A program made the translations under genes and the position numbers. DNA of 64,000 nucleotides from Gracilibacillus sp. YIM 98692 (lineage in GTDB: Bacteria > Bacillota > Bacilli > Bacillales > Amphibacillaceae), in the NCBI RefSeq assembly GCF_010993965.1, contig NZ_WIXM01000006.1, positions 4,529 to 68,528 of the forward strand, written 5' to 3'. A model generated the notes under the pieces. The model was not told the DNA's origin. It saw only the letters and a list, made by a program, of their open reading frames with translations, and did no database searches. Positions 4,077 through 26,914 of the stretch are shown here, in pieces (position 1 is the stretch's first letter; every line of letters starts with the position of its first letter).

Positions 4077-5027
4077 CTAATCCAATCGAAACGAATCAAT
4101 AGCACGCTTTTTCGATTCAAAGTCAATATGGGTATATACCTGTGTGGTTGCTAATGATTCATGCCTTAACAACTCCTGCAGGGTTTTCAAATCGACTTTT
4201 TCTTTCGGTAAATACGCAATATTTCCTTGTTTATCATTGGTCTCCGTTTTTACTTGCTGCAAGAATAACGTGGCAAAAGTATGCCTTAAATGATGTAACG
4301 TAAACCGAGCAGGAGGGAGGCCGGCTTTTTTCAAGACCTCTTTAAAGATATAATGAACGCCTTTTGAATTGAGCTTTTTTCCATGCTAATTTAAGAACAC
4401 GGGCTCCGATGGATAGGTTTGATATTCTCACAAAGAAGCTTTATAACGCTTCAAAACAGGAACAACAACCGAATGGAGGGGGAGGAGGCGCTCCTTTTTT
4501 CCTTTCCCATAAATACGAATGGTTTCGTTATAGAAGTCAAGTTGTTCCCAAGTAAGATCGATGATTTCTTGCCGTCTCATCCCAGTGGTGGCAAGCAACT
4601 TAAACATGGATTCACTCCGAAGTGAAAGGGGGTGTTCAGTTTGCTCCAGGGAAGTAAACAGCTGTTTTAATTCTTCCATATTCATGTAGACAGGGAGCTT
4701 CGTCTCCGATTTTGGTGCTTTGACTCCGGCCATAAAGTTCGTGTCGATCATACGTTCCTTTAAACAGTAGTTACAAAAGGACTTTAAGCTGGAAATGCGC
4801 CGCTGCATGGTTCGCGGTTTCATTTTGCCACCGGCCATCTGATCCTGGATAAATCGTCTCACGACGGATCGGTTGAGATCCTGTAAATCGTTAGAACGCT
4901 TGTGACGTTCTAAAAATTGATGAAATACGGTGAGATCATATTCATAACTACGAAGTGTATGATCTGAATAATTTTGTTCAATTTTCAAATACAAGAGAAA
5001 TTCATCCATTGCTTGCTGAAAATGCAT
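4077..5027 (-). pseudogene. Tyrosine recombinase (XerC/XerD-like) with two nonsense codons
   Basis: One frame runs from ATG 5027 (site CTGGAGG upstream) to 4077, interrupted by TGA at 4430-4428 and TAG at 4388-4386. Ignoring these, it encodes a full integrase of about 316 residues: an N-terminal core-binding domain (MDEFLLYLKIEQNYSDHTLR), then catalytic TGMRRQEIIDLTWEQ with Arg I, the GKGKKER beta-hairpin Lys, HHLRHTFAT with His and Arg II, LLRHESLATTQVYTH with the last His, and the Tyr nucleophile. All catalytic residues survive, so inactivation looks recent. The spacer between the stops still reads as good family sequence (EYQTYPSEPVFLN, HGKKLNSKGVHYIF), so no bases were lost. A longer frame to 5069 exists but lacks a ribosome site. 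Confidence 0.9.
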
Positions 5028-5159
5028 GGGTAACGACCTCCAGAGTTTTTTGTTATTTGGACGCACCAAGCAATTAAATCCCGACCCATGAAGTTATCGT
5101 GACGACAACGGAAGTTATCCGGACGGCCCAATTAATTATCGTCAAGTGGGGAAGCAACA

Positions 5160-5188
5160 ACTTCCTTATAATAATTATTACAGGAAGT
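5160..5188. repeat. 29-bp palindrome, copy 1 (putative recombinase core site)
   Basis: The arms ACTTCCT and AGGAAGT flank an AT-rich, nearly palindromic centre (TATAATAATTATTAC). It lies 133 bp before the start of the recombinase at 4077-5027. A second version with compensating changes occurs at 26832-26860 beside the second recombinase fragment. Confidence 0.7.
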
Positions 5189-5223
5189 AGGCAAATAAGT
5201 TATTGTTCTGTTCACGTTTTATC

Positions 5224-5241
5224 TAGTTAACATAATATATA
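5224..5241. repeat. 18-bp direct repeat, copy 1 (possible attachment site or element end)
   Basis: TAGTTAACATAATATATA occurs here and identically at 26897-26914 in the same orientation. Similarity between the two loci ends right after this 18-mer, as expected for a crossover site or element terminus. Confidence 0.65.
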
Positions 5242-6127
5242 GTGAAGGGCGTAAATTGAAGATTAGAGGAAGTTGACATAATTTATCGTTCAAATTTTGA
5301 TAAGAAGTAGAAAAGTTGATAATTATCGTTCAATCTTTTAATGTAATTCTAGCACATATGTTCTTACATGTCTAATACAATTCTTATATTTTTTAAAGCT
5401 AATAAATTCTGTCATGAAACAGTAGTTAATGAATTAGCTGACCTCCATATTCATAAATATAAAACCCGCTCCTGGTTTTAGTAGAAAAATTCGGTAGAAT
5501 GGATATTGTATAAAAGTTTAGATGGGGCCCATCTAAGGAATATATTTACATAATGAAAGTACAATTCAATTGAAAAAACAAGATAAGCTCGTGATATTCT
5601 AGATGATTAATTGAGTAATAATAGTTAAAAACTATCAGTAGACCATATTAGTAAAGTGGTCTTTTTTAAATGTTATACAGTATTCTAGCCAGAATGCGCG
5701 ATTGTGGAGAAACTCTTATATTACGTAGTAGACCTATACTACGTAACAAAGATCTTCATTTATAGAAGACTTTGCAATAAAATATGAATAAACAACATTT
5801 ACATGGAGATCCGTAAGCTTTGGCGAATTTTTTTCTTTTATGATTGAATCATTTTTATTTTAAAAAGTAAAGTATCCATTTCTTTATTGGTGAATAGTTC
5901 AACACATTGCCCATTTAATTAAGTACATTAATACATACTATGGTTGCTCCTATTCAATATCACATTTTGGTGAGTTTTGCGAGAGTTTATGCAAGTGTTT
6001 AAAAGTTTGATACAATCTTAATACTCGTAAACTAGAATCTTGCAAAATATGTTTACGATTGATTATCTTAATATGGTAAAATATTACCATTGAATATTGT
6101 AGTAATAATAGATTAGGAGGAAAAATA
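5242..6127. other. Gene-free stretch with hairpins and a MITE-end remnant
   Basis: No supported coding frame. It contains AAACCCGCTCCT at 5462-5473, identical to the outer end of the 306-bp element at 9326-9631. There is a terminator-like hairpin AGACCA/TGGTCT followed by TTTTTT at about 5640-5667. A perfect 10-bp hairpin TTACGTAGTA/TACTACGTAA sits at 5721-5746. The last 150 bp before 6128 are AT-rich and probably hold the CBASS promoter, but no single -35/-10 pair stands out. Confidence 0.5.
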
Positions 6128-7213
6128 TTGCAGTTTAAGCGTTTTATAAAGTACAAAGCTTACCCTTATGTAAAAATTTATTTGAAGAATAAAGCTTATA
6201 ATAAAACTCCATTAGTGATCCTTGGTGTTGGTGTCTCTATTATTCCCGGGTTTGACTGGTTTCCTTATTTAGCTCACTTCTTATTTCCTGAAATTGAGAA
6301 CACCGGTACTTATATCAATATTATATCCATTTTAGTCTCCTTAGCTCTTATATTGTTCTCCTTATATTGGATAAATAGGCAAATGACCCAGCGTGAGAAA
6401 GGCCTTGGCTTTCAATCCAAAGTTATACTAAAACAATTCTCTATTGATTCTTCTGAGAAAAACAAAACTTCACTAAACCCTAAAGATGTATCTTATGTAA
6501 TTTTAGATCAGAGACCTAAATTGTCAGAATCTAAGTTAACTTGGATCAAAAACAACCTTGTTAAACAAAAGGAAGCAATTGGAGATTATTTATATGTAGT
6601 CGAAAGATGGGACCAACCAAAATCACAATATGAAGGATTGGCACATATACCTTTCGTATTCTTATTAGGTTATCAGGTTTCTGATAAAAGAAATTTTATT
6701 TTCTCGGAATGGGATGAACATAAACTCAAGTGGAATGAATTACCCGAAAATGGTGACTATGCCAAGTTACAATTAGTGAGAGATTTAAACTCTGATAAGT
6801 ATGAGGCCACTGATGTTAATATATTGATATCCCTTACAGCAGAAATCAAAAAAAGTCAATTAAAGGGCAGTACTACTGAACACAACGATATCTACCATTT
6901 AAAACTTGTAAAATGTAAAAGACATGCAATTAAGTGTTCAACCCAGTTAAGTGAGTATAAGGAACAATTTCGATCGCTATTAGATGAACTTTATGAACTT
7001 TATCCAAAATTAACAAGAGTAAATGTCTTTATTTCTGCTCAAACCTCCCTAGTTTTTAATATCGGAAGTTCATTAACAAGGAATGATAAAGTAGTATTCA
7101 TTTACAACTTTGAGAGTAAAAACCCTATTAATTATCCGTGGTCATTAAAGGTTCATAAAGAGACAGAAGTAAGTAAGCTTAGTTCTTATATTGAACACCA
7201 AGGGGGAGTATAA
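6128..7213 (+). CDS. cap14: CBASS effector: two-transmembrane SAVED protein (Cap14-like)
   Basis: The start is TTG 6128, with TAGGAGG 8 bases upstream. The 361-residue protein has two membrane segments (residues 27-50 and 61-82), then a cytosolic SAVED domain. The C-terminal core (residues 298-335) shows the family pattern VNVFISAQTSLVFNIGSS followed by KVVFIYNFES. SAVED domains bind cyclic oligonucleotides. In 2TM-SAVED (Cap14) proteins, binding is thought to trigger membrane disruption and abortive cell death. The next gene, which starts directly after the TAA, encodes the matching cyclase, so this is a two-gene operon. No Cap2/Cap3 or HORMA genes are present, which fits a type I CBASS. SAVED sequences are very diverse, so the call rests on the C-terminal motif and the operon. 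Confidence 0.85.
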   Translation: MQFKRFIKYKAYPYVKIYLKNKAYNKTPLVILGVGVSIIPGFDWFPYLAHFLFPEIENTGTYINIISILVSLALILFSLYWINRQMTQREKGLGFQSKVILKQFSIDSSEKNKTSLNPKDVSYVILDQRPKLSESKLTWIKNNLVKQKEAIGDYLYVVERWDQPKSQYEGLAHIPFVFLLGYQVSDKRNFIFSEWDEHKLKWNELPENGDYAKLQLVRDLNSDKYEATDVNILISLTAEIKKSQLKGSTTEHNDIYHLKLVKCKRHAIKCSTQLSEYKEQFRSLLDELYELYPKLTRVNVFISAQTSLVFNIGSSLTRNDKVVFIYNFESKNPINYPWSLKVHKETEVSKLSSYIEHQGGV

Positions 7214-8569
7214 ATGTTAAATCTACACAATGAAATGAAAGACTTTCATGATTACGAGGTCAAGTTATCTGAAGATGAAGCAAATAAATTAAGAGACTTA
7301 AAAGGTACAAATATCAAGAATCTCAAAAGTGGATTAAGTGCAATTAATGACGAAAAAAAGAAAAATTACGCATTAGTGGATGATGTAGTCCAAGGAAGTA
7401 TGGCTATGCACACAGTTACTCAAAATGATGAGAATGACTATGATATCGATGTTGCGGTAATATTTGATAAAGATAACATCCCCTCTTCAGCATTGGATTG
7501 TAGGAAGTTAGTGGAAGATGCATTAAGGAGGAAGTGTACAAATTTTGTTGTACCTCCAACTACCGGAAAGAATGCCGTAAGAGTACAATATCAAGCTGGC
7601 TATCATATTGACTTTGCTGTGTACAGAAAATACAAAGAAAATGAAGAAGATGAAGAATTTGTTTTTGAGCATGCAGGACCTTCTTGGAACTCCAGACACC
7701 CCAAAGAGATTAGAGATTATTTTAATCAACAAATTAGAGAGGATAGTCCTAAAGAAGATGATGAAGGAGTTGTTGTAAAGAAAAATCAAATGAGAAGAAT
7801 TATACGACTGCTAAAAATGTTTTGTCGCTCTCGAAGTAATTGGAGTTTACCAGGAGGAATAATATTAACCACGTTAGTAGATGAATGCTATGTTCCCAAT
7901 TCTAAAAGGGATGACAAATCTTACTATGATACGTTAGTCGCTATAAAAAATCGAATAATGTTGTCCAACAATGTTAACAATCCAACTGATCCTTCTCTTT
8001 CCCTGACACCAAAAGAAAACCACAAAAAGAAAGTAACAAGATTAAAAAATTATATAGAAGAGAAACTCATTCACTTAGACGTTTTGTTTGAAAGTGATTG
8101 TACAATCGAAAAAGGTAAAAAAGCATGGAAAAAATTTTTAAAACATGATTACTGGACACCTGAAGAGATTTCTAAATCTGCTACAAATGAAATGTTTACC
8201 GAAAGAACACAATATCCAGAAACTTATCGTTTAGAAGTAAGATATGTATTATATAATAATAGTAAGACAAGCAGAATCAACTATATAACTAACCGAAGAA
8301 AAGAAAGACTGAATCCCAAACACTGTAATTTGCATTTTGAAGCTATTCATAATGTCCCTGTACCTTATGAAATATTATGGGAAGTAAACAACAACGGTGA
8401 TGAGGCACAAGACAAAAATGACATATCACATTCAACAAAATATCAAAGTTATGAGGGGAACTACCACTGGGAAGGAACTAGCTATAAAGGAACTCATTCA
8501 ATGACTGTAAAAATATTGAGAAGTAATAATGTTGTAGCTAAAAGAGAAGTTAAAATCAACATCGTGTAA
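7214..8569 (+). CDS. CBASS CD-NTase with AGS-C sensor domain
   Basis: This 451-residue cGAS/DncV-like nucleotidyltransferase makes the cyclic nucleotide signal of CBASS. Motifs: G61-S62 in VVQGSMAMHT, the metal-binding D77-I-D79 in DYDIDVAVIF, and the third acid D133 in GYHIDFAVYR. An OAS1-C-like helical region follows (MRRIIRLLKMFCR, LPGGIILTTLVDE). The last 90 residues (FEAIHNVPVPYEILWEVNNN, then SMTVKILRSNNVVAKREV) match the beta-sandwich AGS-C domain thought to sense an infection cue. The ATG follows the effector stop with no gap, and GGGGGA serves as ribosome site. AGS-C cyclases paired with SAVED effectors usually make trinucleotides, but the product here cannot be read from sequence. 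Confidence 0.92.
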   Translation: MLNLHNEMKDFHDYEVKLSEDEANKLRDLKGTNIKNLKSGLSAINDEKKKNYALVDDVVQGSMAMHTVTQNDENDYDIDVAVIFDKDNIPSSALDCRKLVEDALRRKCTNFVVPPTTGKNAVRVQYQAGYHIDFAVYRKYKENEEDEEFVFEHAGPSWNSRHPKEIRDYFNQQIREDSPKEDDEGVVVKKNQMRRIIRLLKMFCRSRSNWSLPGGIILTTLVDECYVPNSKRDDKSYYDTLVAIKNRIMLSNNVNNPTDPSLSLTPKENHKKKVTRLKNYIEEKLIHLDVLFESDCTIEKGKKAWKKFLKHDYWTPEEISKSATNEMFTERTQYPETYRLEVRYVLYNNSKTSRINYITNRRKERLNPKHCNLHFEAIHNVPVPYEILWEVNNNGDEAQDKNDISHSTKYQSYEGNYHWEGTSYKGTHSMTVKILRSNNVVAKREVKINIV

Positions 8570-8661
8570 TGAAGAAAATGATAGATGTATTATATAGTCA
8601 ATGTAAATAGCTGCACAGTACAATGAAACTGTGTGATAGATAGACAGTTTTGTATTTAATT

Positions 8662-8690
8662 TAAGACGATTACATTAAGTAATCGTCTTA
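8662..8690. terminator. Perfect 12-bp hairpin after the CBASS operon
   Basis: TAAGACGATTAC pairs with GTAATCGTCTTA around a 5-base loop, 93 bp after the cyclase stop. It probably terminates the CBASS transcript, although the T-run is weak (TTTAG). Confidence 0.7.
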
Positions 8691-8902
8691 TTTAGCATTA
8701 AAAAGCCAGAAAATCCATAAACAATATTTAACAGAAAATATTATGTTAAGGGAGGAGTAACATACTTTAGACTTAATTAAATATTATAGAGATCTTATAT
8801 GTTTTAGGAGGTACCCCCAACTCAGGCTTTTAAAAGGCCTTTAATAGTAATCAAAATCCCCTGGTAAACTCAAACAAAATTGGAAAGAAGGGAGAGATAA
8901 AA

Positions 8903-9132
8903 ATGACTATTTGGCTTAATGCCGATAAGCCTACGAAGCTACACATTCGCAATGTAGATTTACTAAAAGTCTAAAAGAAACAGCATTAAAAGGAGTAGGA
9001 AAAGAAAAACAAGATGGAGGCTGGTTTCAGTTTAGTAGTCGTGAAGAAGCTCGGGAATTTCTTAACTATCAATATCCAAATTTTACTCTTAAAAGCATTG
9101 TTAAAAGTGGAATAAAACTACAATACAAATAA
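8903..9132 (+). pseudogene. Frameshifted small protein
   Basis: ATG 8903 follows GGGAGAG. The first frame reads MTIWLNADKPTKLHIRN and stops at 8974. The second frame, from about 8960, reads FTKSLKETALKGVGKEKQDG, then GWFQFSSREEAREFLNYQYP, and ends IVKSGIKLQYK at TAA 9130-9132. Joined, they give a protein of about 76 residues. The WLN-DKPTK opening followed by KETALKG and a GGW-F segment recalls small hypothetical proteins seen in Bacillaceae islands. Function unknown; it is inactive unless the shift is a sequencing error. Confidence 0.6.
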
Positions 9133-9325: not shown

Positions 9326-9631
9326 AAACCCGCTCCTTTTTGACAATTAACTGGTTCAATTGAGACTTAGAATAGCGAGTCTTTCAGATGGGAAATTAGC
9401 AAGCTAATTCTGACTTCCTTTTAGTTGTTGTTATACCAGCTATAACATGCTATTCAGCCCCTTTCACTATCGACATACGTACACGATTTTATGTGTTAAT
9501 TTCTATACTAAATCAGCAAAAATATTGATATTGCAACAAATATAGCAGTACGAATTGTACTGCTATATCATATGTTATTTTATTTTTTCTCCCCACGCAC
9601 AACCAGTTAATTTGACAATAGGAGCGGGTTT
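9326..9631. mobile_element. MITE-like element with 29-bp terminal inverted repeats
   Basis: The left end (9326-9354, AAACCCGCTCCT and on to AATTAACTGG) matches the reverse complement of the right end (9603-9631) at 24 of 29 bases. The 306-bp interior has no coding frame. It contains a strong hairpin, TATAGCAGTAC/GTACTGCTATA, at about 9541-9567. These are the marks of a non-autonomous miniature transposon. I see no clear target duplication, so its class is unknown. A lone copy of the outer 12 bases occurs at 5462-5473. Confidence 0.6.
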
Positions 9632-9809
9632 TTTAAATTGGATTACTTGCTTTATAAATGACAAAAGAATAAAAGTAAGCACATTTTCAAAATCAGGCAG
9701 TAGAACTTAAACTAACTTCCCATAATATTAGGATTATTGAGTACATACTCTTTAAAATGAAGATTAATAAATGTAAAATAATGTATAGATAACAAGAGAG
9801 GTGTTCGAT

Positions 9810-12800
9810 TTGGAAACAAACTTTGCTATTGAAAAGGCCAAAAACTTTTTTGAGTATTTACTCGAATTAAATAATCTGGTTGGAAAAGTAACTAGAGATT
9901 ATAGAGAATTCGAAAAGAATTGGCATATTGAAGAGTTTGCTGATTTAAACGGTTGTTATTTATACGAAGATTGCCATAATGAAGAAAGTATTTTTGAAAT
10001 ACATAGGCCAAATATAACTGAAAAGGATAAACAACCTCCAAGACCACCTGATTTGATTAAAGAGTGGATTGATTTTAATTTCTTGAATGAAAACTCTAAG
10101 CCATCTTTTATTAAAGAAAAGTTATTCATAAATGATGAAGACGAAGTAACAGAATATTTTTTAGATAGTGAAGAGCGAAAATCAAATTATACAGGGTGGA
10201 TCTCTGAATGGAGCAAATGGTCTGAGTTTTTAAAGGAAAAAAAACAAGTACTAAAAATATATGAAGAATTCTTTGAACTAATTTCTAGATTAGAAAAGGA
10301 AGGGGAGTCACTAGAATTTATTTTAGGAAGTGGACTTTTGTGTTGGCAACATCCAGATGCAAAGGTAGGATCAATACGATCACCACTTTTAACCTCTAAA
10401 TTGGAACTTGATCTAAATGCCGAAAAAGGGGTTATTTCAGCTAGGCTAGTGGATAAAACAATAAAGATCGAACGGGAAATATTCACAGGAGTTCACTTAC
10501 CAAATATAAATCAATTTTATAAGCTCTTTAGAAATCTTGATTCTAGGGATATTAATGAAGATCTAACTGATTTCTATACTCAATTTATTCATTTACTTGA
10601 TGCAAACGGGAAGTTCGTAGATGAACCAAAAACAATTAAAACAAATGAGGATCCTATAATATATAATTTTTCTTTGTTCTCATTAAGAAGTAAAAATGTA
10701 AGAGTGCTAAGAGAAGATCTACAGCAAATTATTTCTGGTATTTCAGACGGTTACTTAGAACTGACGGATACCGTATCTGCGATAGTCGGAGATGAAATCA
10801 AATCTAAACAAAGAGACGAAAATAAATTAAGTGAGAATAAAACCGTTGTAGCGGATAACAGTTTGTATTTTCCTTTGGAATCAAATGAACAACAAAAAGA
10901 GATTATTAACAGAATCGAACGTCATCATGGAGTTACTGTTCAAGGACCACCTGGAACTGGTAAGACACATACAATAGCAAATTTAGTGTCTCATTTTTTA
11001 TCAGAAGGTAAAAAAGTTTTGATTACAAGTCAAAAAGAAAGCCCTTTAAAAGTCTTAAAAAATAAAATCCCAAAAGAAATCAGAGATTTATGTGTTCCTG
11101 TTTTGGGTGGAGGCAGAGAATCTCTTCAAGAGATAGAACAATCTATTCGTTCGATAGGGGAAAAATTAGGCGAGCTAGATGTTCAAAATCTACAAGTTGA
11201 AATTCAACGGAATAAAGAATACCTAGATAAAAGTAAACGAACAGAAGCACAGTTGAAAAATCAACTTAAAGATTATGCAGAAAAAGAGGGTGATGAACTT
11301 CATTATAAAGGAGAAAAACTATATAAATATGATGTTGCAAAACGTTTAGCAGAATCGAAAATTGATTATTCTTGGTTACATGATGATATTGATATGAAAG
11401 AGAATTTCCCATTAAATGAAACTGAGTTCAAAGAACTCTGGAAAATTAGGGGAGAATTAAGAGTAGAATACTTACCTCTAAAAGATCAAATGCTGCCTGA
11501 CGTAGATACTCATATAAAAAATAAAGTGTCATTCAGTTCGTTCATAGAAAATGGTAATGATTTACTACAGTTTAATAAGATTGGTCAGGAAGTGTTTTTA
11601 AAATACGACCTTCCAAAAGATGAGAACTTTCTAAAATCCCTTTTAGCTGACATTAGGGGAATTTTAGGTATGGCTGCAATCTTAAATAACAAGAGCTATG
11701 ATGCAATTATTGAAGACTGTAAAGCTGGAGGAATTCGTGAAGAACGGTGGCGGAATTTATTAAATGATATGGAGTCTTCAAAGCAAAAACTATTTGGACT
11801 TTATAATAACCTTGTTACACACAAGATTAGTTTACCTGATAAATACTTTTCATTAGTAAAAGAAGATTTAAAAATTGCAAAAGAAAGGTTAGATAGTGGT
11901 AAAAAACCTAATCTAGTCTTTAACCTCTTTAAAGGAAAGCAAGCTAAGTATCTATTTGAGGATCCTGTCTTAAATGACAAGCCATTAAAAAGCTCTGAAG
12001 ATGTAATCCCAATAAACGAATATATTGAGTATGAAGAATTAAAGAATGAAACAGCTCGTGTATTCAATGGAAACATGGACGAAATCGGACACTCGATTAT
12101 TGAAGAAACAGAGAAAAGGTTTCCTCATCTTTTGGAAGAACGATTATATGAACTTAAACTAATAACAAAAGCTGTAGATGCTATCGATGCATTAACTGAG
12201 AAGTTAAAACCATATAAATTTAATAATGTTGATTATTACTCAACAGACGTGAATAAACAATTAATAGTTGAAGTTGAAAATGCCATCAAACACCTAGAGT
12301 TTGAAAATTGGAATGAGAACTTTGTGAATGAACTTCAATACCTAAAAGAGTTGAATTCAAAAGAAAATGTGCATCCAATTCTCCAAGATTTAATCTATGC
12401 TTATGAAAAGAAAGATACATCAGAATGGGGAAAATTGTTAAATCATCTTCAAAACTTACATCAAGCAAAAGAGGTTGTATATAGATTTTATGAATTACTT
12501 GAAAAAATAGCAAAATTGCTACCTTTCACTAGTAAATCTATAGAAATGATAGTTGGAGAACAGGTGGATTTACCTGAACAACATGAGGATGCTTTTGAAT
12601 TAAGAAAACTACAAACTTGGTTAGATGAAACGAAAGATATGAACATTACTCTTTTAAAGAAACAAATTGAAGAAGAGCACAAAAAGCAAAAAAGGCTAAT
12701 TCGTGAAATTGTTAGTGCATCTACTTGGAAGAACCAAGTGGAGAGAATTACTAATGAGGAGAAAAGGGCTTTATCCGCTTGGAAAACGTATATAAAACGT

Positions 12801-14621
12801 TTTGGTAAAGGTGGAGGGAAATATGCTCATGTTCATCTTCAGGGTGCAAGAGAAGAAATGAAAACAGCTCAAAGCGCTATTCCTGTTTGGATCATGCCTG
12901 TAAATCAAGTTTTAGAGAATTTCCCAGTAGCAAATGAAAAGTTTGATGTCATTATCTTTGACGAAAGCAGTCAATGTGATTTATTCTCTATTAATGTTTT
13001 ATTACGTGGAAAGAAGACAATTGTAGTAGGGGATGACGAACAAATTAGCCCTCAAGCAATTGGAACAAATCTTGAAGATGTATATGAGTTGGTACGTCGT
13101 CATTTAAAAGGCATTCCAAATGCCAACTTGTTTGATGGGAATATCTCATTATATGAAATTGCAGAACAGACATTCCCAAAAGAAGGAAAGCTAATGTTGA
13201 GAGAACATTTCAGATGCGTACCCGAAATTATTCAATTTTCCAATGACCTTAGTTATGGTGGTGAAATGATACCACTACGGCTACCATTAGAAGAAGAGAA
13301 AATAGATCCGCCAGTAACTGCAATCAAGGTCCAAGATGGATACAATGATGAAAAGGATAAAGATTTAAATGTTGCTGAAGTTGATTCAATTGTATCAGAC
13401 ATGGTTGAGATGGTAGATAATCCAAAGTACGCAGATCAAACATTTGGGGTTATAACTTTACAAGGGCAAAAGCAGCATAAACTTCTTGAAACAAAGATAA
13501 GAGAAAAAATAGGAGACAAGGAATTTGTAAACAGAAAAGTAATTTGTGGGAATCCTTATACTCTCCAAGGTGACGAAAGAGATATCATCTTTCTCTCGAT
13601 GGTAGTTGCGCCAAATCGTAATTTCAGAGCTTTAACTAAGCCGTCAGAAAAACAAAGATTTAATGTTGCAGCAAGTCGTGCTAAAAATCAAATGAGGCTT
13701 TATCATTCAGTCGACTTAGAAGAGTTAAGTTCATCTGATTTACGTTATCGTTTATTAAGTTACTGCAAAAATCCAACTAGAATTAATGAAGAAATTGAAA
13801 ACTTAGAGGAGAAATGTGATTCTCCTTTTGAAATTGATGTTCTTCGCATGATTCTCGCTAGAGGTTATCGTGTAACACCACAAGTTGAAGTTGGTCGATA
13901 TAGAATTGACCTTGTAATAGAGGGGTTACGTGACAGATTAGCTGTTGAATGCGATGGTGAAAAATGGCATGGACCTGAAAAGTTTGAAGAAGATATGCAA
14001 TGTCAGGAGTCATTAGAAAGAGCAGGCTGGAAATTCTGGAGAATTAGAGGAAGAGAGTTTTATTTTGACCGGATAAAGGCGATGGAAAGTCTTTGGAAAG
14101 AGCTTACTAACATGGGAATAGACCCTGTATATTCAACTTCAACATTAAAAAACAATAACAATACTCAGAGACAGACATCAACTTTAAAAGTGGCCAAAAT
14201 GCAAGAGGATAAAAGAAAACAGTCGTCACTATTAAGTAAAGATAATGATGCTAATATAGAGAAAGATAACAAGTGTAGAACAAATGTTGGGGTTCAATCG
14301 GAGTTATTTGATTCATCTATGGAAGAATTCCACCAACAAATTAATTTATTTGAAGATATTATTGATGTAGAAAATGAAAGTTCACACCAAACAACAGATA
14401 ATAATTCTAATGATGATTCCCTTTATAATTTTTTGGTAAATAAAGGTTTATACGTAATTGATCAAAGGGAAAAAGGAGGAAGTCTTTGGGTTATTGGTGG
14501 AAGTGAACTGAAACCATTAATGAGTGAACTCGCACGAAAGAATATTCAATTTACCTTTGCACAAAGTGGAAGTCGATCTACTAAACGAAAACCTGGTTGG
14601 TATTCAAAATATAGAGGATAA
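9810..14621 (+). CDS. Giant SF1 helicase fused to a DUF559/Vsr-like nuclease (Hhe-like)
   Basis: TTG 9810 is preferred because AGAGGTG lies 6 bases upstream; the GTG at 9801 has no spacing. The product has about 1,603 residues. An N-terminal region of about 370 residues is unrecognised. Walker A GPPGTGKTHTIANL lies near 380, then about 660 residues with charged coiled-coil stretches. Walker B IIFDESSQCD is near 1050, followed by VVGDDEQISPQAIG, LREHFRCVPEII, GDERDIIFLSMV and RFNVAASRAKNQ. These are AAA_11/AAA_12-type SF1 helicase motifs. A PD-(D/E)XK nuclease at about 1340-1440 (GRYRIDLVIEG, LAVECDGEKWHG) is of the MTES_1575/DUF559 type. The last 65 residues form a separate domain (KGLYVIDQREKGGSLWVIGG). 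Helicase-nuclease proteins such as Hhe defend against phage. Fragmented neighbours contrast with this long intact frame. Confidence 0.85.
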   Translation: METNFAIEKAKNFFEYLLELNNLVGKVTRDYREFEKNWHIEEFADLNGCYLYEDCHNEESIFEIHRPNITEKDKQPPRPPDLIKEWIDFNFLNENSKPSFIKEKLFINDEDEVTEYFLDSEERKSNYTGWISEWSKWSEFLKEKKQVLKIYEEFFELISRLEKEGESLEFILGSGLLCWQHPDAKVGSIRSPLLTSKLELDLNAEKGVISARLVDKTIKIEREIFTGVHLPNINQFYKLFRNLDSRDINEDLTDFYTQFIHLLDANGKFVDEPKTIKTNEDPIIYNFSLFSLRSKNVRVLREDLQQIISGISDGYLELTDTVSAIVGDEIKSKQRDENKLSENKTVVADNSLYFPLESNEQQKEIINRIERHHGVTVQGPPGTGKTHTIANLVSHFLSEGKKVLITSQKESPLKVLKNKIPKEIRDLCVPVLGGGRESLQEIEQSIRSIGEKLGELDVQNLQVEIQRNKEYLDKSKRTEAQLKNQLKDYAEKEGDELHYKGEKLYKYDVAKRLAESKIDYSWLHDDIDMKENFPLNETEFKELWKIRGELRVEYLPLKDQMLPDVDTHIKNKVSFSSFIENGNDLLQFNKIGQEVFLKYDLPKDENFLKSLLADIRGILGMAAILNNKSYDAIIEDCKAGGIREERWRNLLNDMESSKQKLFGLYNNLVTHKISLPDKYFSLVKEDLKIAKERLDSGKKPNLVFNLFKGKQAKYLFEDPVLNDKPLKSSEDVIPINEYIEYEELKNETARVFNGNMDEIGHSIIEETEKRFPHLLEERLYELKLITKAVDAIDALTEKLKPYKFNNVDYYSTDVNKQLIVEVENAIKHLEFENWNENFVNELQYLKELNSKENVHPILQDLIYAYEKKDTSEWGKLLNHLQNLHQAKEVVYRFYELLEKIAKLLPFTSKSIEMIVGEQVDLPEQHEDAFELRKLQTWLDETKDMNITLLKKQIEEEHKKQKRLIREIVSASTWKNQVERITNEEKRALSAWKTYIKRFGKGGGKYAHVHLQGAREEMKTAQSAIPVWIMPVNQVLENFPVANEKFDVIIFDESSQCDLFSINVLLRGKKTIVVGDDEQISPQAIGTNLEDVYELVRRHLKGIPNANLFDGNISLYEIAEQTFPKEGKLMLREHFRCVPEIIQFSNDLSYGGEMIPLRLPLEEEKIDPPVTAIKVQDGYNDEKDKDLNVAEVDSIVSDMVEMVDNPKYADQTFGVITLQGQKQHKLLETKIREKIGDKEFVNRKVICGNPYTLQGDERDIIFLSMVVAPNRNFRALTKPSEKQRFNVAASRAKNQMRLYHSVDLEELSSSDLRYRLLSYCKNPTRINEEIENLEEKCDSPFEIDVLRMILARGYRVTPQVEVGRYRIDLVIEGLRDRLAVECDGEKWHGPEKFEEDMQCQESLERAGWKFWRIRGREFYFDRIKAMESLWKELTNMGIDPVYSTSTLKNNNNTQRQTSTLKVAKMQEDKRKQSSLLSKDNDANIEKDNKCRTNVGVQSELFDSSMEEFHQQINLFEDIIDVENESSHQTTDNNSNDDSLYNFLVNKGLYVIDQREKGGSLWVIGGSELKPLMSELARKNIQFTFAQSGSRSTKRKPGWYSKYRG

Positions 14622-14627
14622 ATATAT

Positions 14628-17736: not shown

Positions 17737-17899
17737 TCTGAAAATACAAGAACTTATTCATTTCTGTTTTTATATAAACTTTTTAGTTGTATTTTCAGTT
17801 CCTTTTTACATAGTTAAATGATGAATATTTTGTTGTTATAGTTATAGCGTATAATGTACTTTAACATTAGTTTACATAAGTTTACATAATCTTTCGAAG

Positions 17900-17938: not shown

Positions 17939-17942
17939 GATT

Positions 17943-20886: not shown

Positions 20887-20895
20887 ATTTGGGAT

Positions 20896-21517: not shown

Positions 21518-21530
21518 AGGAGGAACTGTA

Positions 21531-22505
21531 ATGAAAAAGATTATTTTATTATCGATGTGTATGTTAGTTTTACCATTTAGCTCAGTGCTAGCTTCAAACG
21601 AAGAAAATACACAAAAAACTACGATTGATCAACTTAAAGATAAAGGGATAAACATTCCTGAAAATAGTTTACTATTTAGAGATGATATTTCTGAAACGCG
21701 AAAAAATATTATGCGTGAGGAAAGTAAATTAATCAATGACTACCTAAATGAAATGTATGATGCACGAGCTAAAGCAAGAGTTATTGATAATAGGCTAAAA
21801 GACGAGAGAGATGAGTTAATGAAAAGTGAAATTGCTACTCTTGAAGCAGAAAGAAATCAACTGTTTAATAAATTCACTAACATGAGTCGTAACTTTAGTT
21901 ACAATTTAGGATTTGAAGAAGTGACTACTTCTTCTGAAGATAGTACGATGTCTATAGCTGATACGCATTCTGGAATGGTAGGGAAAAGTGTAAGCAAAAT
22001 TTATTATTCTAGCGACTCCAATGCTTATGTAGCATGGGGAGACTTCGCGTGGATAGATAATCAATGGATGAATGATCTTCCAGGTACACGGTATGGTTAT
22101 GATATTGGAGGTTATGATGGCTTTTATATAGGGATAGAAGAAGACATTGATCCTGTTTCAGCATACTTTAGAACTACCTCTAATGAAGGTAATTCAACTA
22201 ATTGGTCATGTGATTTATGTGCTGGTGATAGAGATTGGACTCCAAATGGGTGGCATATCAAATGGCAAGATAGTTTTGAGCCTTATCCAAGTGAGTACAA
22301 CACAGATTCAGGGTATGGACACATATATTTTACGTTTGACAATAGTCCATTAGGAGAGAACATTACCAGTTACATGGGATATGGTCACACATGGGAAAAT
22401 ACAAGTATTTCCAGTATATCGGTTGGACCCTATAGTGGTGGCTTTAGTTGGCATAATCAAGGGGAGAATTGGGATGATGAGGTCTTCGAGAATACCCAAT
22501 ATTAG
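21531..22505 (+). CDS. Secreted protein of unknown function
   Basis: The 324-residue protein starts at ATG 21531 with AAAGGAGGAACTG upstream. Residues 1-22 (MKKIILLSMCMLVLPFSSVL, cut near ALA-S) form a signal peptide. About residues 25-115 are charged and helical, probably a coiled coil. Residues 140-324 form a Trp-, Tyr- and Gly-rich domain (YVAWGDFAWIDNQWMND, GYDIGGYDGFYIGIEEDIDP, NWSCDLCAGDRDWTPNGWHI) with a CDLC pair that could make a disulfide. The aromatic richness suggests an extracellular carbohydrate- or surface-binding domain, which is inference. It is intact, with a terminator after it. Confidence 0.6.
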   Translation: MKKIILLSMCMLVLPFSSVLASNEENTQKTTIDQLKDKGINIPENSLLFRDDISETRKNIMREESKLINDYLNEMYDARAKARVIDNRLKDERDELMKSEIATLEAERNQLFNKFTNMSRNFSYNLGFEEVTTSSEDSTMSIADTHSGMVGKSVSKIYYSSDSNAYVAWGDFAWIDNQWMNDLPGTRYGYDIGGYDGFYIGIEEDIDPVSAYFRTTSNEGNSTNWSCDLCAGDRDWTPNGWHIKWQDSFEPYPSEYNTDSGYGHIYFTFDNSPLGENITSYMGYGHTWENTSISSISVGPYSGGFSWHNQGENWDDEVFENTQY

Positions 22506-22520
22506 GAAATATAAAAATGG

Positions 22521-22556
22521 CCTAATAGGGACTCTTTTCCTATTATAACCTTTTTT
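22521..22556 (+). terminator. Terminator after the secreted-protein gene
   Basis: TAATAGG pairs with CCTATTA across a 9-base loop, followed by TTTTTT, 16 bp after the stop codon. Confidence 0.7.
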
Positions 22557-22660
22557 ACTGTAGCCAAGTGGTAAAAAGTCAAGAGGTGGGGGAACAATCC
22601 CCTAAAAAAGTTCTGTCTCTATTATTGTCCTATAGGCACGTCTGAAAGTCTATCAAAAAA

Positions 22661-22697
22661 ATGGCGCAGGATGGGGCTTTCCCCATCCTGCGCCATT
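22661..22697. terminator. Very strong GC-rich hairpin
   Basis: ATGGCGCAGGATGGGG pairs perfectly with CCCCATCCTGCGCCAT around a 4-base loop. It is far more GC-rich than its surroundings. It may be a terminator or a foreign repeat; nothing transcribed toward it is obvious except the secreted protein gene 150 bp upstream. Confidence 0.7.
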
Positions 22698-22895
22698 TCA
22701 CCTATTTAATTTTTAGCATTTTTAATAAGTAGTATGAGACATCTTAACTGCGACTTACAAAGGAAAATATTTTGTTAAATTCATTGTCACGCCTCCCTAT
22801 TCACAGTAAAATACGAAGAGGGCATTCAATGAGATCCGGATCCAATTGGAAATTCCTCTAAGAAGAGCTCTTAAACATATCATACGAGGAGGGAT
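22698..22895. other. Intergenic stretch, nothing identified
   Basis: No coding frame or strong hairpin. The last 10 bases carry the GAGGAGGG ribosome site of the next gene. Confidence 0.4.
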
Positions 22896-22898
22896 ATT

Positions 22899-23417
22899 AT
22901 TTCTAAAAAAAGTATAGTATTCTTATTCATTACGATTATAATGGTTTTAGTTATAGTCTTATTTGTTCGCGAAACGAATTCTTCCGAAGGAAACGTTATA
23001 AAAAATATAAACGCTGTTATAACACCTAAGATATTAAAGCCTGCCACCGTATTATATGAAGAAGAACAAACCTTGGTAATTGGAAAGAATGTACACAACA
23101 GCTTTCTTATTCATCATGTTAGTGATAACGGGAAGGAAATTTTAAGCTCTACCTCAATACCAAAAAACGATTCAGATATGAGTATATCATATGGAGACTT
23201 CACCGGTGATCAAAGAATTCTCGCAGGAATCATATACAATCCACATATTCATGAGGTTAAAATAGAAGGCTTACCAAATGAGAATACTCGATATGCCATC
23301 ATAGACGGAAAGAAGTTATTTATTAATATTACGGATGGACGACTTACCAATGACAATCTGCAAATTAAGGTGCTTGGTCTATCTGCAGATGGAGAAATTC
23401 TTTATGAGGACTTTTGA
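22899..23417 (+). CDS. Exported or membrane-anchored protein with non-standard start
   Basis: GAGGAGGG at 22886-22893 points to a start at ATT 22899 (ATT 22896 is next to it). That start gives SKKSIVFLFITIIMVLVIVL, a complete signal anchor. The first ATG, at 22941, would begin inside this hydrophobic segment and has no ribosome site. The rest, about 145 residues, looks like a beta-rich exported domain (PATVLYEEEQTLVIGKNVHN, NLQIKVLGLSADGEILYEDF). Either ATT is used as a rare start codon or ATG has mutated and the gene is dying. Family unknown. Confidence 0.5.
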   Translation: MSKKSIVFLFITIIMVLVIVLFVRETNSSEGNVIKNINAVITPKILKPATVLYEEEQTLVIGKNVHNSFLIHHVSDNGKEILSSTSIPKNDSDMSISYGDFTGDQRILAGIIYNPHIHEVKIEGLPNENTRYAIIDGKKLFINITDGRLTNDNLQIKVLGLSADGEILYEDF

Positions 23418-23698
23418 GACCACATCATTATAAAAATAACCAGCTAAACTTCGTATAAAGGCTATTCACCACAATTCTATAAAATATGCCCAACGGCATA
23501 AACAAATCTCTGTTTCTCCCAAGACATTTGTAACTACATGTTCAGTGGTAGAACAAAGAAACACAAAAACCTAAGAGCGATTAATAAAAATGTACTAAGT
23601 TATGTCATGAAAAATTTTAATCTAAACCGAAAGATTGAGTATTGCCTAGTTCAATACCTGTTACGGCACATTTTCCATATTGGGCAATAAACTTGCTA
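23418..23698. other. Intergenic stretch, nothing identified
   Basis: AT-rich DNA with no supported gene, repeat or terminator. Confidence 0.4.
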
Positions 23699-23821
23699 AT
23701 GCGGTTTGACACACATCAACAAGCACAAGATTTTTTAATTGCAGCTGGCGGGTCAGAAAGTGACCCTCACCGTCTCGATGGAAATGATAATGATGGGTTA
23801 GCCTGTGAAAGTTTACCTTAG
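23699..23821 (+). pseudogene. Excalibur calcium-binding domain fragment
   Basis: The frame ends with THQQAQDFLIAAGGSESDPH, then RLDGNDNDGLACESLP. The DxDxDGxxCE pattern is diagnostic of the excalibur domain, which usually sits at the C-terminus of secreted nucleases and surface proteins. Only about 40 codons remain, with no signal peptide and no ribosome site. A terminator hairpin follows at 23827-23855. Confidence 0.8.
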
Positions 23822-23826
23822 ATGTA

Positions 23827-23855
23827 AGACAGTCCTCAAGGATTGTCTTTTTTTA
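23827..23855 (+). terminator. Terminator after the excalibur fragment
   Basis: AGACAGTCCT and GGATTGTCT pair around CAA and are followed by TTTTTTT. Confidence 0.75.
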
Positions 23856-24035
23856 TTGCATGTTATACTTGGTTTAATCTATGTTAGGAACAAATGTTCT
23901 GTTCGAGAAGGATTGGGATGAAAGCTAACAAGCGAATTTATTCTTCCATTTTATAAATGAGTTAAATAATCAATTATCTATTATATTAACTTCTATCAAG
24001 AGGACAAGTGATTGATAAGTAGCATGATGATTTTA

Positions 24036-24153
24036 GGCAAGGTCGTCCAAGAAAGATAGTAAGAAACAAATTAAACATGCGCTTATGTTGAAGAAAAGTT
24101 ATTCTTATAAGCAAGTGGAAGAAATGACTGGAATTAACGCGGATAAGGGCTAA
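24036..24153 (+). pseudogene. Serine recombinase C-terminal HTH remnant
   Basis: Two overlapping frames read QGRPRKIV and KKQIKHALMLKKSYSYKQVE, then EMTGINADKG before a stop. Together they match the C-terminal helix-turn-helix of resolvase/invertase-type serine recombinases (GRPxK, K-QI--AL, Y-Y----E-TGI). The catalytic domain is missing and a frameshift separates the pieces. It is a scrap of a mobile element. Confidence 0.5.
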
Positions 24154-24231
24154 AATATAATGAATTTAAGCTAATTTATATATATGGTAAAATAGTAATA
24201 GTCACAATTTACTTTTTAGGGATGGGATAAA

Positions 24232-24400
24232 ATGGTGAATATCAAACAAGTTTTCAATGATATTAAGAGCACAAAAAAATTACCCATAATGTTTGTTGGG
24301 TCTGGCATAAGTAAAAGATATACAACCAATGATTATGATTGGAAAGAATTACTTATTAAGTGTATAAGTCAATATGATTCAAACCCTGAAAGAAAGTACA
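24232..24400 (+). pseudogene. N-terminal remnant of a SIR2-family defence protein
   Basis: ATG 24232 follows AGGGATGGG. The first 52 residues (MVNIKQVFNDIKSTKKLPIM, FVGSGISKRYTTNDYDWKEL) carry the nucleotide-binding LPIMFVGSGIS motif and the following R-Y----W-ELL pattern of bacterial SIR2-like NADases in anti-phage systems. After about 24400 the frame runs into the IS21 remnant and stops at 24429. Full proteins are several hundred residues, so this one is dead. Confidence 0.7.
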
Positions 24401-24401
24401 A

Positions 24402-24631
24402 ATGGTACCATCACCCTTGCCATTCCTAATTTCTTAGCAATCTTACTTTTTGAAAACCCTAATTCTCTTAGTTGAGAAATTTGGTTATACATTCTCCACT
24501 TTTCCACCTTTGTTTCCTCCACATACGATAATAATTCTACCTATCTATCATATATGGAAGGAGTAATGTTTTGGGCGAAAAGTGTTCAATTTTATTGAGC
24601 AATAATTGACTATTTTAGTTTAGCAGTTACA
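24402..24631 (-). mobile_element. IS21-family remnant: left end and IstA N-terminus
   Basis: On the minus strand, a GTG-started frame (about 24520) reads VEETKVEKWRMYNQISQLRE, then LGFSKSKIAKKLGMARV. This is the N-terminal helix-turn-helix of IS21 IstA transposases (W-MY-EI--L---GFSKS-IAK-LG). It ends after about 47 codons by running into the SIR2 fragment. Upstream lie the typical IS21 end sequence (GTCAATTATTGCTCAATAAA) and a terminal TGTAACTGC at 24631-24623, which marks the element end with its TGT. The end abuts the phage gene at 24632 in frame, so the element had inserted into that gene. The rest of the element is deleted. Confidence 0.65.
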
Positions 24632-25459
24632 TGGAAATCCATGCGAGTTAAGTGCTATAGCAGTAATAAAGATAATCACCATAAAAAGGGCAAAATATGG
24701 ATCTGCGATGAATGGAAAGATGACCCTGTAGCTTTTGTGAATTGGGCTAAAGAAAATGGTTATAAAGAAGGTTTACAATTAGTTAGGAAAGACAAGGAAG
24801 AGGGGTATTACCCCGAAAACTGCGCTTTTCTTAAAATAGAAGAGGCAAATAAAACGCATGGAATGAGGCGGACAAGATTATATAACATTTGGACTCAAAT
24901 GCTCCAAAGATGCAAGAATCAAACCCTTGATCACTATGATAGATATGGTGGAAGAGGGATAACAGTATGTGATGAATGGGGAGATTTTGAGGTTTTTGCA
25001 AAATGGGCAAAGGAAAATGGCTATAAAGATGGTTTAACAATTGATCGCATAGATGTAGATGGTAATTACGAACCGAAAAACTGTAAATGGAGTACAAACC
25101 TAGAACAAGCAAGAAACAAAAGGACAAGTCGATATATAACAATTAATGGAGAAGCTAAAACAGTAGCTAAATGGGCGGAAATAAGCGGATTACCATATAA
25201 GACACTACAAAGAAGGCTTTATACCGGATGTAAAGAAGAAGATTTGTTAGCTCCAGTAGGAACAATATATGAGCATAAATTCCTTATTGAAATAAATGGT
25301 GTAACAAAAACAATCAATGCTTGGGCAAAAGAAGCTGGGTTACCTTTCTCTACTGTTAAAAGAAGATATCAAAGAGGTGTTAGAGGGGAAGATTTGATTA
25401 AAAAAGGAAGATTAACTAATAACAATAATAATCAATTATCTTTTGATTTTGATTGCTAA
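24632..25459 (+). pseudogene. HNH-like phage protein with NUMOD-type repeats, 5'-truncated
   Basis: The frame is open from the IS21 end: WKSMRVKCYSSNKDNHHKKG and so on. It contains two copies of a module with ICDEW, FVNWAKENGYK and YYPENCAFLK in the first and TVCDEW, FAKWAKENGYKDGLTIDRID and NYEPKNCKWS in the second. The second is preceded by LYNIWTQMLQRC, which is how the first module should also begin, so the N-terminus is lost. The C-terminal half has two ITINGEAKTVAKWA-type helix-turn-helix repeats, like NUMOD DNA-binding modules of homing endonucleases. The ATG at 24641 has no ribosome site. Phage or homing-endonuclease origin is likely. Confidence 0.65.
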
Positions 25460-25501
25460 TGTCCACTTCAGCGTATAATACGCAAAAGTGGGCATTTTTA
25501 T
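25459..25501 (+). terminator. Terminator after the HNH-like gene
   Basis: TGTCCACTT pairs with AAGTGGGCA (one G-U), with an inner GCGTAT/ATACGC stem, followed by TTTTT. It begins at the stop codon of the gene. Confidence 0.75.
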
Positions 25502-25553
25502 GTGGGAGATAAAAGTGTAGGGGATATATTTCGGAACCAAGGAGCGGGTGACA

Positions 25554-25854
25554 ATGGTTAATCCCAATAGCCCGTTTATGGAACAACAGGTGACATTATT
25601 ACTGAAGGTTTATAAAGACGGGAATCCCTTTTGTTACAATATCAATCTATGATGAAAATATCATCGCAAAATCTGACAAAATACAGGTGATTTGGGAAGA
25701 TAGCCATCAATCAACTGAGTAAATAAATAATAAAACAAATTTTATAATTCCGTATAACTCAAGTGAAGGTAATATAAATGAGAATTTATCTAGAACCACA
25801 TCAGAAATACTTTTTTTGAATCAAAAAGGTGAGGTAATTTACTCATTAGATTAA
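25554..25854 (+). pseudogene. Small broken gene (frameshift and nonsense codon)
   Basis: ATG 25554 follows AAGGAGCGGG. Frame one reads MVNPNSPFMEQQVTLLLKVY then KDGNPFC. After a one-base shift in a T-run near 25632 it continues VTISIYDENIIAKSDKIQVI, then WEDSHQSTE, a TAA at 25720-25722, and NKTNFIIPYNSSEGNINENL in the same frame to TAA 25852-25854. The joined product would be about 99 residues, beta-rich, perhaps one Ig-like domain. Function unknown. Confidence 0.5.
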
Positions 25855-26064
25855 TAATAAATTACTTTTTTAATTTCTTAACAACGATACCTAAAAGTTA
25901 GGTAAGCTCCAATCAATGAACCAATTTGCAAGACACTGGATGCCTGCTATCCGAGACACTTCCGAATGACAGTGATTAATCCTGAAGGTTATTTGATAAA
26001 ATGAATATAAGGCAGGAGCACTGAAGATTTCATATCTTTGGCGCTTTTTTACGGAGGTGGTGTC

Positions 26065-26572
26065 ATGACTAAAAGGGTTACTATTAATGATATGCGACTA
26101 TTAGCATTATCTAAAGGAGGTAAATGCATATCAACGAAATATGTGAACGGTAACACGGAATTGGAATGTATAAAAGGGCATAGGTGGTTTGCTAAACCCT
26201 CAAAAGTTAAGCGTGGAAATTGGTGTGAAAAATGTGCGAGTAATACCGATAAAAATATAGAGGATATGCATAAACTAGCTGAACAGTACGGAGGAAAATG
26301 TATTTCTGCGGTATATATTAATAATCATTCATCTCTTTAATGGATTTGTGATATACGCCATCATTTTATTGCTTCGTATTCAGAAATTAAAGAATTAATA
26401 AGTAATGGCTGCTTTTGTTCCAAATGCTATCATATAGTAAAAACGCAAAAGAAACCTCGAGGAAATGAGGAAAATCGCAGAATCAAGAGGTGGCCAATTT
26501 CTATCTAATAAATACCTTCATGCGCATGAAGTTTTGATTTGGGAATGCGCTAAAGGGCATACATTTCAGTAA
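26065..26572 (+). pseudogene. Zinc-ribbon repeat protein, broken and truncated
   Basis: ATG 26065 follows CGGAGGTGG. The frame encodes tandem modules built as CIKGHRWFAKPSKVKRGN followed by WCEKC. The first is intact; the second has lost its C-G-H start to a TAA at 26338-26340 and continues WICDIRHHFIASYSEIKE then CFCSKC. The third, in a shifted frame, reads ESRGGQFLSNKYLHAHEVLI then WECAKGHTFQ and is cut at 26572. Each module has two Cys pairs that should bind zinc. Such repeats occur in phage and island proteins related to homing-endonuclease zinc ribbons. The truncation point abuts the recombinase fragment on the other strand. Confidence 0.7.
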
Positions 26573-26714
26573 GCTCCAAAGCACGATTATGCCTAACCAA
26601 AAATTCTTCAAAGGTTTTTAAATCGTAAGAGTACCCGTTAACCGTATTTTCTGAATAATTCTTTTCGATAGCTAAATACATTAAAAAATCATCGACTGCA
26701 TGTTTAACATTCAT
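26573..26714 (-). pseudogene. Tyrosine recombinase N-terminal fragment, second copy of the locus
   Basis: ATG 26714, with CCGGAGGTG upstream, opens a frame MNVKHAVDDFLMYLAIEKNY then SENTVNGYSYDLKTFEEFLV and ends at the junction with the zinc-ribbon gene. It aligns with the start of the recombinase at 4077-5027 (AMDEFLLYLKIEQNYSDHTL, RSYEYDLTVFHQFL). Only the core-binding domain survives; the catalytic domain is gone. It has the same orientation as the first copy. Confidence 0.85.
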
Positions 26715-26831
26715 AAATAAACACCTCCGGAAGTTTAAACGAAATAAAATAACTGGTTGAAAAAGAGATAATTATCGTTCATAATTTGATAATTGGTTCA
26801 AACGAAAAATTATGATCAACTTGAGGATAGA

Positions 26832-26860
26832 AGTTCCTAATAGTAGTTATTATGGGAACT
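26832..26860. repeat. 29-bp palindrome, copy 2
   Basis: Arms AGTTCCT and GGGAACT flank TAGTAGTTATTA-type AT-rich sequence. It lies 118 bp before the second recombinase start. Relative to copy 1, the second base pair C-G is replaced by G-C, keeping the pairing. Confidence 0.7.
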
Positions 26861-26896
26861 TGAGGAGGTAAAGCTTATAAATTCGGGGAAATCATT

Positions 26897-26914
26897 TAGT
26901 TAACATAATATATA
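26897..26914. repeat. 18-bp direct repeat, copy 2
   Basis: TAGTTAACATAATATATA, identical to 5224-5241 and in the same orientation, 36 bp after palindrome copy 2 (35 bp in copy 1). Core genes begin right after it. Confidence 0.65.

Follow-up and report, generated by a model that had tools for sequence, protein, structure and literature searches.

The 64,000-nucleotide stretch of Gracilibacillus sp. YIM 98692 analysed here (contig NZ_WIXM01000006.1, positions 4,529 to 68,528 of the forward strand; hereafter the window) carries a 21.7-kb island of accessory genes. An earlier note on this DNA had proposed that two copies of a tyrosine-recombinase locus, each with a 29-bp palindrome and an 18-mer, bracket the island and mark the ends of a mobile element family. 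The motifs are present as described, with the 18-mer TAGTTAACATAATATATA at 5224-5241 and 26897-26914 and a 29-bp site 35 bp from it on the left (5160-5188) and 36 bp from it on the right (26832-26860). The left recombinase is indeed dead, with one TGA and one TAG inside, and the right N-terminal fragment was recovered as a match at 26714-26562. The two loci lie in direct orientation 21.7 kb apart, but they are not a matched pair: compared by eye over approximately 47 residues they are about half identical, and they must therefore be regarded as separate members of one family rather than recent duplicates. Identity to the intact recombinase of Cytobacillus depressus is 73-74% for the left pseudogene and 47-49% for the right fragment. 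The features at and around the two ends of the island, as interpreted below, are the following.

5242-26914, no strand: body of the putative dif-integrated element, 21,673 bp between two XerD halves
26898-26925, minus strand: chromosomal dif and right junction of the element, 24/28 positions matching Bacillus subtilis dif; its XerD arm and centre correspond to the 18-mer
5225-5252, minus strand: hybrid dif and left junction of the element, 22/28 positions matching B. subtilis dif; XerC arm foreign
26562-26714, minus strand: N-terminal remnant of the element's Xer-like recombinase, from a sequence match to the family reference
4077-5027, minus strand: pseudogene of a second, distinct Xer-like recombinase, assigned to an older neighbouring element; two internal stops as above
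26832-26860, plus strand: dif-like accessory site (29-bp near-palindrome) at the element's right end, with an XerC-arm-like half 48 bp upstream of dif
5160-5188, plus strand: dif-like accessory site (29-bp near-palindrome) at the right end of the older element, with an XerC-arm-like half 47 bp upstream of the hybrid
5271-5287, plus strand: AGTTGACATAATTTATC, an XerD-arm-like site close to the left end of the element, differing from the 17-mer core of the 18-mer at 3 positions
26988-28568, minus strand: FAD/Rieske oxidoreductase gene outside the element, a conserved chromosomal neighbour of dif on its XerC side, from a family match and its position in same-genus loci

Judged from its sequence, the 18-mer is the XerD arm plus the centre of dif, the bacterial site used for separating finished chromosomes (chromosome-dimer resolution). 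When the window is compared with the B. subtilis dif, in the form confirmed by PMC3025954, the two best places are 26898-26925 and 5225-5252. The XerD arm AGTTAACATAA and the centre TATATA are identical in these two copies and the left XerC arm is unrelated; past the 18-mer similarity ends, as had been observed, with the left copy continuing as GTGAAGGGCGT and the right as TTATCAGAAGT. Cumulative GC skew, calculated for the window only, reaches its maximum at 26933, 8 bp from the right dif, and such a peak is expected at the replication terminus. The 17-mer core has two exact copies in the 4.37-Mb draft genome, and its eight other matches carry two mismatches each and represent background, a reversed control pattern also giving ten matches. 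Among 61 genomes searched (60 relatives and the window genome), the dif pattern with at most one mismatch is found in 50 and is absent from 11; 45 genomes have one copy, G030 and G043 two, the window genome three, G010 eight and G015 eleven. The match to dif, the skew peak and the presence of the same site in relatives together identify the right copy as the chromosomal dif. That the motif occurs without the recombinase, once per genome in 45 of the 50 matching genomes, is explained by the motif being dif itself; the proposal of a family with motif-bearing ends that delivered the island holds up, and the notion of an 18-mer private to the element does not.

The multiple matches in G010 and G015 (contig C1 in each) include several overlapping pairs on both strands; these pairs are dif-like palindromes located elsewhere than the main dif. 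Tens of base pairs from dif on its XerC side, at 26941-26981, the window has a hairpin-forming palindrome around GTATACTT, single in the window and recurring in varied form at the same place in other dif loci; its role may be that of a terminator for the adjacent gene or of a site associated with dif.

Reading away from dif at the right end of the island, 36 bp are followed by the accessory site and then by the recombinase remnant. Just outside the hybrid at the left end, the family has a further right end, made up of the accessory site at 5160-5188 and the pseudogene at 5027-4077. The right recombinase thus belongs to the 21.7-kb element and the left one terminates an older element that was already present. 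In the simplest history, the older element would have stood beside dif and the 21.7-kb element would then have inserted into the adjoining dif. The XerD-arm-like site at 5271-5287 is possibly an accessory site, and similar sites can be seen by eye in other left ends. No remnant of a second, oppositely oriented recombinase distinct from the pseudogene was found in the window. An XerD-like half at 17879-17895 was considered as an older internal junction and rejected, there being no recombinase match beside it, and a possible C-terminal piece of the right recombinase near 26231-26347, at E 0.92, is not claimed.

The intact C. depressus protein (P0004) was used as the query for the recombinase family. 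At the level of the window's taxonomic family, 4 of 159 genomes have a member; for the order the count is 16 of 397 and for the class sample 8 of 398, the window genome being included each time. Seven further family-level matches (37-40% identity) were set aside; in the tree, six of them cluster with host XerC and one was not placed, and the three that were scanned all pass the XerC cut-off. A scan of contigs from named genomes yielded five loci, namely C. depressus, C. citreus, a record taken to be the G071 genome again, a Peribacillus fragment and a 30% match that was dropped, bringing the total to 31 recombinase-family loci with the window's right fragment included. By script, an XerD half in the correct orientation lies no more than 0.6 kb from the recombinase start at 23 of these 31 loci, at a spacing of 119-211 bp, and with L030 added through its N-terminal piece a complete or hybrid dif adjoins the recombinase in the same orientation at 24, with 0.11-0.21 kb between it and the recombinase start. 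At the class-level loci the XerC arm is spelled differently (TTATCGGACTC or TTATCGGACGT) and the XerD arm and centre, the part common to the element, are unchanged.

A tree with 11 family rows, from which the window fragments were left out, places the family in a single clade (support 99/98) apart from host XerC and XerD; the placement of this clade beside the other groups is weak. Two starred sister pairs cross family boundaries (G487 with G362, families f40 and f29; G381 with G089, f22 and f1), a branching pattern that suggests transfer between families. The four members tested score 243/210, 249/223, 236/201 and 227/211 bits, below the XerC/XerD cut-offs of 335/330 bits. Residues R152, K176, H246, R249, H290 and Y299, which we take to be the catalytic set R-K-H-R-H-Y, are invariant in all 11 aligned proteins (nine from the family and two host enzymes); together with the length of the proteins they mark the family as Xer-type tyrosine recombinases, and the closest solved chains include XerD, XerH and XerA. 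Both host proteins have a C-terminal tail with HPRA that the family does not have. In Xer complexes, tails of this kind make contact with the partner subunit, and partner choice may therefore differ. No close relatives were found on plasmids or viral contigs, and phage records gave only matches of 29-35% identity, in nine unannotated records. A second tyrosine recombinase in opposite orientation adjoins the first in G419, G465 and G487 and lies approximately 4 kb off in G358 and 9.5 kb off in G333. In G071 (L066) and G232 (L086) the recombinase end is followed by a GTCTCA palindrome and then by a dif-like site that appears, by eye, to be inverted relative to the usual layout.

The 29-bp sites of the window, described earlier as palindromes, are near-palindromes, and across 19 right ends strict palindromicity is not significantly above that of shuffled sequences (6.79 versus 6.57, standard deviation 0.17). 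The strict palindrome was accordingly discarded as a signal and replaced by the XerC-arm-like half site, the conserved part, which 15 of the 19 right ends have at a distance of 47-49 bp from the XerD arm.

The two junction types recur in relatives. On the same strand and contig as dif, on the recombinase side and within 160 kb, a second XerD half is found in nine genomes at distances of 6.6-153 kb, as listed here.

G000 (the window genome): 21,673 bp
G139: 6,628 bp
G419: 31,246 bp
G333: 41,108 bp
G358: 28,674 bp
G465: 36,167 bp, and another 4,520 bp beyond
G487: 39,374 bp
G824: 81,199 bp
G691: 153,163 bp

By chance approximately 0.003 XerD halves per strand per 45 kb are expected (reversed control, 10 matches in 19 genomes). 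In G388, G089 and G539 the hybrid is on another contig and its pairing is assumed; other one-mismatch matches are scattered and are not element-adjacent hybrids, examples being site 117840 in G139 and a site on C43 in G539. All 13 hybrids compared retain the centre, followed by 11 bases that do not correspond to the XerC arm, and the XerD arm is one base off that of the genome's own dif in the G419 hybrid and the outer G465 site. Unusual centres are common to dif and hybrid within a genome (TATTTA in G487 and G388, TATAAA in G419). By eye, another right end of the family stands outside the hybrid in G000, G139, G419, G358, G487, G465 and G539, and none does in G333, G388, G089 or at the outer G465 site. 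A hand tally of 30 of the 31 loci, the Peribacillus fragment being unscored and some loci lying near contig ends, finds the far hybrid with 9 of 12 intact recombinases versus 4 of 18 broken or truncated ones, with two of the intact cases and one of the broken resting on a hybrid on another contig.

Uninterrupted sites were also found. The clear case is G462, which matches the outer flank of G333 at 77% to 3 bp from the junction and then runs directly into a complete dif; its right flank agrees with that of G333 at 99 of 121 positions. Two further cases are weaker: G449 is 80% identical to the G388 outer flank over about 90 bp, with dif 166 bp on and weak similarity between, and G006 is 73% identical to the G089 outer flank over 265 bp, with dif approximately 215 bp on. 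In searches of 13 genomes each, the G333 flank matched only itself and G462, and the G388 flank also matched four genomes without dif there, so that the left context is itself variable. The empty-site check proposed in the earlier note therefore succeeds in that the sites match the 18-mer, but they do so because they are dif, and not as a motif belonging to the element alone.

The surroundings of dif in 15 same-genus genomes are variable on one side. When open reading frames (ORFs) of at least 90 amino acids within 8.8 kb of dif are compared, 6.4% are shared per ordered genome pair on the XerD side versus 62.7% on the XerC side, and pairs sharing at least one gene number 18 of 105 versus 91 of 105. 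In line with the earlier claim that core genes begin directly beyond the right copy, 14 of the 15 loci (the exception is G006) have the end of the FAD/Rieske gene 103-124 bp away from dif, always on the same side; in three loci from other genera the gene lies 156 bp from dif in two and on the opposite side in the third. One-sided variability is what repeated insertion would leave if dif were rebuilt each time at the XerC-proximal end.

Taken together, these patterns make it quite probable that the island is a mobile element integrated at dif, one of a family whose own Xer-like integrase rebuilds dif at one end and whose members stack on one side. The circular form would carry the XerD arm and the 6-bp centre, but no XerC arm, beside its own recombinase gene. 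Recombination within the centre would join the recombinase-bearing end to the chromosomal XerC arm, rebuilding a complete dif, and would leave the far end with a hybrid dif; this outcome is supported by the junction sequences, the empty sites and the matching centres. With dif rebuilt, dimer resolution could continue and another element could insert at the same place, hence stacking on the XerD side. Tandem elements are seen directly, and the newest would lie nearest dif. Comparison of sequences supports the site, both types of junction, an empty site that is clear in at least one case, the stacking of elements in tandem and a catalytically complete recombinase linked to the site. The catalyst is likely the element-encoded recombinase rather than host XerCD, the accessory sites would give the reaction its direction, and the rebuilt dif would be functional. 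Since both recombinase copies in the window are broken, the 21.7-kb island is probably immobile unless it can be moved by a related enzyme.

Several observations weigh against this account. Seven of the 31 loci are not beside dif, and transposon insertion explains only G381 and G720; G071, G232, G515, G855 and the Peribacillus fragment are away from dif with no explanation. No consensus emerges among the foreign arms of the hybrids. For the older element a left boundary was not located, the stretch from the contig start to the hybrid having no XerD half with at most two mismatches. The congeneric genomes with one-sided variability have no member of the recombinase family at the threshold used, and other elements or decay must therefore contribute to the pattern there.

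The alternative that deserves most consideration is that of a classical integrative mobile element exploiting Xer recombination (IMEX), in which integration at dif is the work of host XerC and XerD and the element's own recombinase is a passenger, a circle resolver or a regulator. The window host encodes both enzymes above the model cut-offs, the XerD arm and centre are common to element and host dif, and known IMEXs without one good Xer arm still use host XerCD, according to PMC5357621. We nevertheless consider this explanation improbable, because the recombinase is linked to dif at 24 of 31 loci, appears catalytically complete in relatives by the residue set given above, is part of a right-end arrangement that is conserved and includes accessory sites, and more often has a far hybrid when intact than when broken in the hand tally.

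Two other explanations fare worse. Two direct right-end units 21.7 kb apart do resemble a composite element whose ends are paired and whose private terminal motif is the 18-mer, yet the 18-mer is part of dif and is present in relatives without the element, and the flanking recombinases are far from near-identical, which led us to reject a composite transposon. Hybrids without a second outer recombinase in G333, G388 and G089 speak the same way, and the comparison of G333 with G462 contradicts the idea in that one recombinase end and one hybrid suffice; we regard it as very unlikely. Scarcely credible is the proposal that the recombinase is a resident, vertically inherited host gene at dif, as in single-recombinase Xer systems, and that the islands came otherwise. 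The genes for XerS and XerH do lie near their own dif (PMC5357621), but the patchy distribution in family, order and class, the pairing of recombinases from different families as sisters, the two copies within a single genome, the hybrids and empty sites, and the presence of host XerC and XerD are all at odds with it.

A dif-integrated element with its own integrase can be compared with several known systems, here as the cited papers describe them. IMEXs such as the gonococcal genetic island, EludIMEX-1 and Legionella LME-1 carry a dif mimic and integrate at dif through host Xer enzymes (PMC9765430, PMC5357621), and integration at the host dif that leaves one complete and one modified dif is the arrangement found here. 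The present elements differ in having their own Xer-like recombinase at the dif-proximal end and in their hosts, which are Bacillales and relatives with stacked arrays. TLC and the gonococcal island retain the centre together with the XerC side and diverge on the XerD side (PMC5357621); the present elements do the opposite, retaining the XerD arm and centre and having a different XerC arm. The reference protein belongs to the same superfamily as host XerC and XerD (CodV and RipX) and is 35% and 32% identical to the XerC and XerD of the window genome, but the separate clade, the scores below both cut-offs and the missing tail set the family apart. XerT of Helicobacter islands, IntKX and Brujita likewise use a short Xer-type recombinase without an arm-binding domain to drive an element (PMC8138268); the target here is the host dif. 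The Tsy and TnsF elements are tyrosine-recombinase elements with a fixed chromosomal target (PMC10293859), but that target is comM, a distinction drawn from their description. We therefore call the family IMEX-like in site and integrase-carrying in enzyme. In the open-licence literature searched we found no description of dif-integrated elements in Bacillales; dif elements are described there only outside this order and mostly as users of host enzymes. The present findings point to dif-targeting elements with their own Xer-like recombinase. They offer a mechanism for the variable and the nearly fixed sides of dif in these genomes, their exact junctions can be used to locate such islands elsewhere, and they tie phage-defence cargo to the site of chromosome-dimer resolution.

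The cargo of the 21.7-kb element includes a probable cyclic-oligonucleotide-based anti-phage signalling system (CBASS), recognised from a cyclase gene that directly adjoins an effector gene, and a large protein related to other defence systems.

6128-7213, plus strand: CBASS effector with a SAVED domain, closest to 2TM-type effectors (PF18145 8.5e-30; PADLOC effector 2.9e-27)
7214-8569, plus strand: CBASS CD-NTase, an oligonucleotide cyclase (PADLOC cyclase 7.3e-142; DncV-like domain)
9801-14621, plus strand: large helicase-nuclease of 1606 amino acids, anti-phage ProA/Hhe-like (AAA and REase_MTES_1575 domains)

The last of these matches NCBIfam ProA at 1.7e-65, far below the cut-off, and PADLOC PDC-S37 at 1.3e-57; the element also encodes proteins without family assignment. 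No relaxase or mating-pair genes appeared among the window's family matches from general scans, no dedicated search having been made. For other elements, 105 ORFs of at least 150 amino acids were scanned in two sets drawn from G139, G419, G333, G358, G487 and G465, with the best 25 of 97, 232 and 176 families considered, totals given per set and not per protein, and NCBIfam applied to the second set only. Among the matches listed, type I restriction-modification subunits occur in both sets, and the set from G358, G487 and G465 has PglX, PglZ and BrxC of bacteriophage exclusion (BREX) type 1, ProA/Hhe, MADS-like and DrmD-like proteins. Our reading of ORF sizes and order assigns a restriction set to each of G419, G333, G358 and G487 and a BREX set to G465. 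Streptogramin-resistance genes resembling Vat, Vgb and Vga are found in the 6.6-kb dif element of G139 (L106, 3923-7173), so the cargo is not only defence. A more speculative picture, which we put forward tentatively and hold to be doubtful as a whole, is that in Bacillales and a neighbouring order dif-homing elements act as a one-sided assembly line for defence islands. The XerC-like enzyme of the element would team with host XerD on the shared XerD arm, accessory sites resembling Xer arms would make integration directional, and dif would be rebuilt each time, so that CBASS, BREX, type I restriction-modification and ProA/Hhe cargo would stack at the terminus with chromosome segregation unharmed.

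Some further observations concern the neighbourhood of these elements. Transposon-like inserts lie inside the accessory site in G381 (C4, about 77.7-113.6 kb; L078, L120, L121) and G720 (C1, about 1801.6-1817.7 kb; L159, L166), separating the recombinase from dif; they have TGT..ACA ends and repeated end motifs of approximately 20 bp. The G381 insert carries a TnsA-like gene, an AAA ATPase, Cas3 and Cas7, with a likely 5-bp target duplication, AATGA, seen by eye, and similar end repeats flank other hybrids in G824, G691 and G333, also by eye. These inserts are possibly a site-hunting Tn7-like transposon. Within the window, a 306-bp stretch at 9326-9631 with 31-bp inverted ends (84% complementary), single copy in the genome, looks from its sequence like a small non-autonomous element. 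Left of the island, at 2937-3770, is a DHDPS-family gene with 78% identity to a gene located 8-9 kb away on the other side of dif in G011. Elsewhere in the window genome (C34, 23.7-28.1 kb), five tyrosine recombinase genes stand in a row on the same strand, unrelated to dif.

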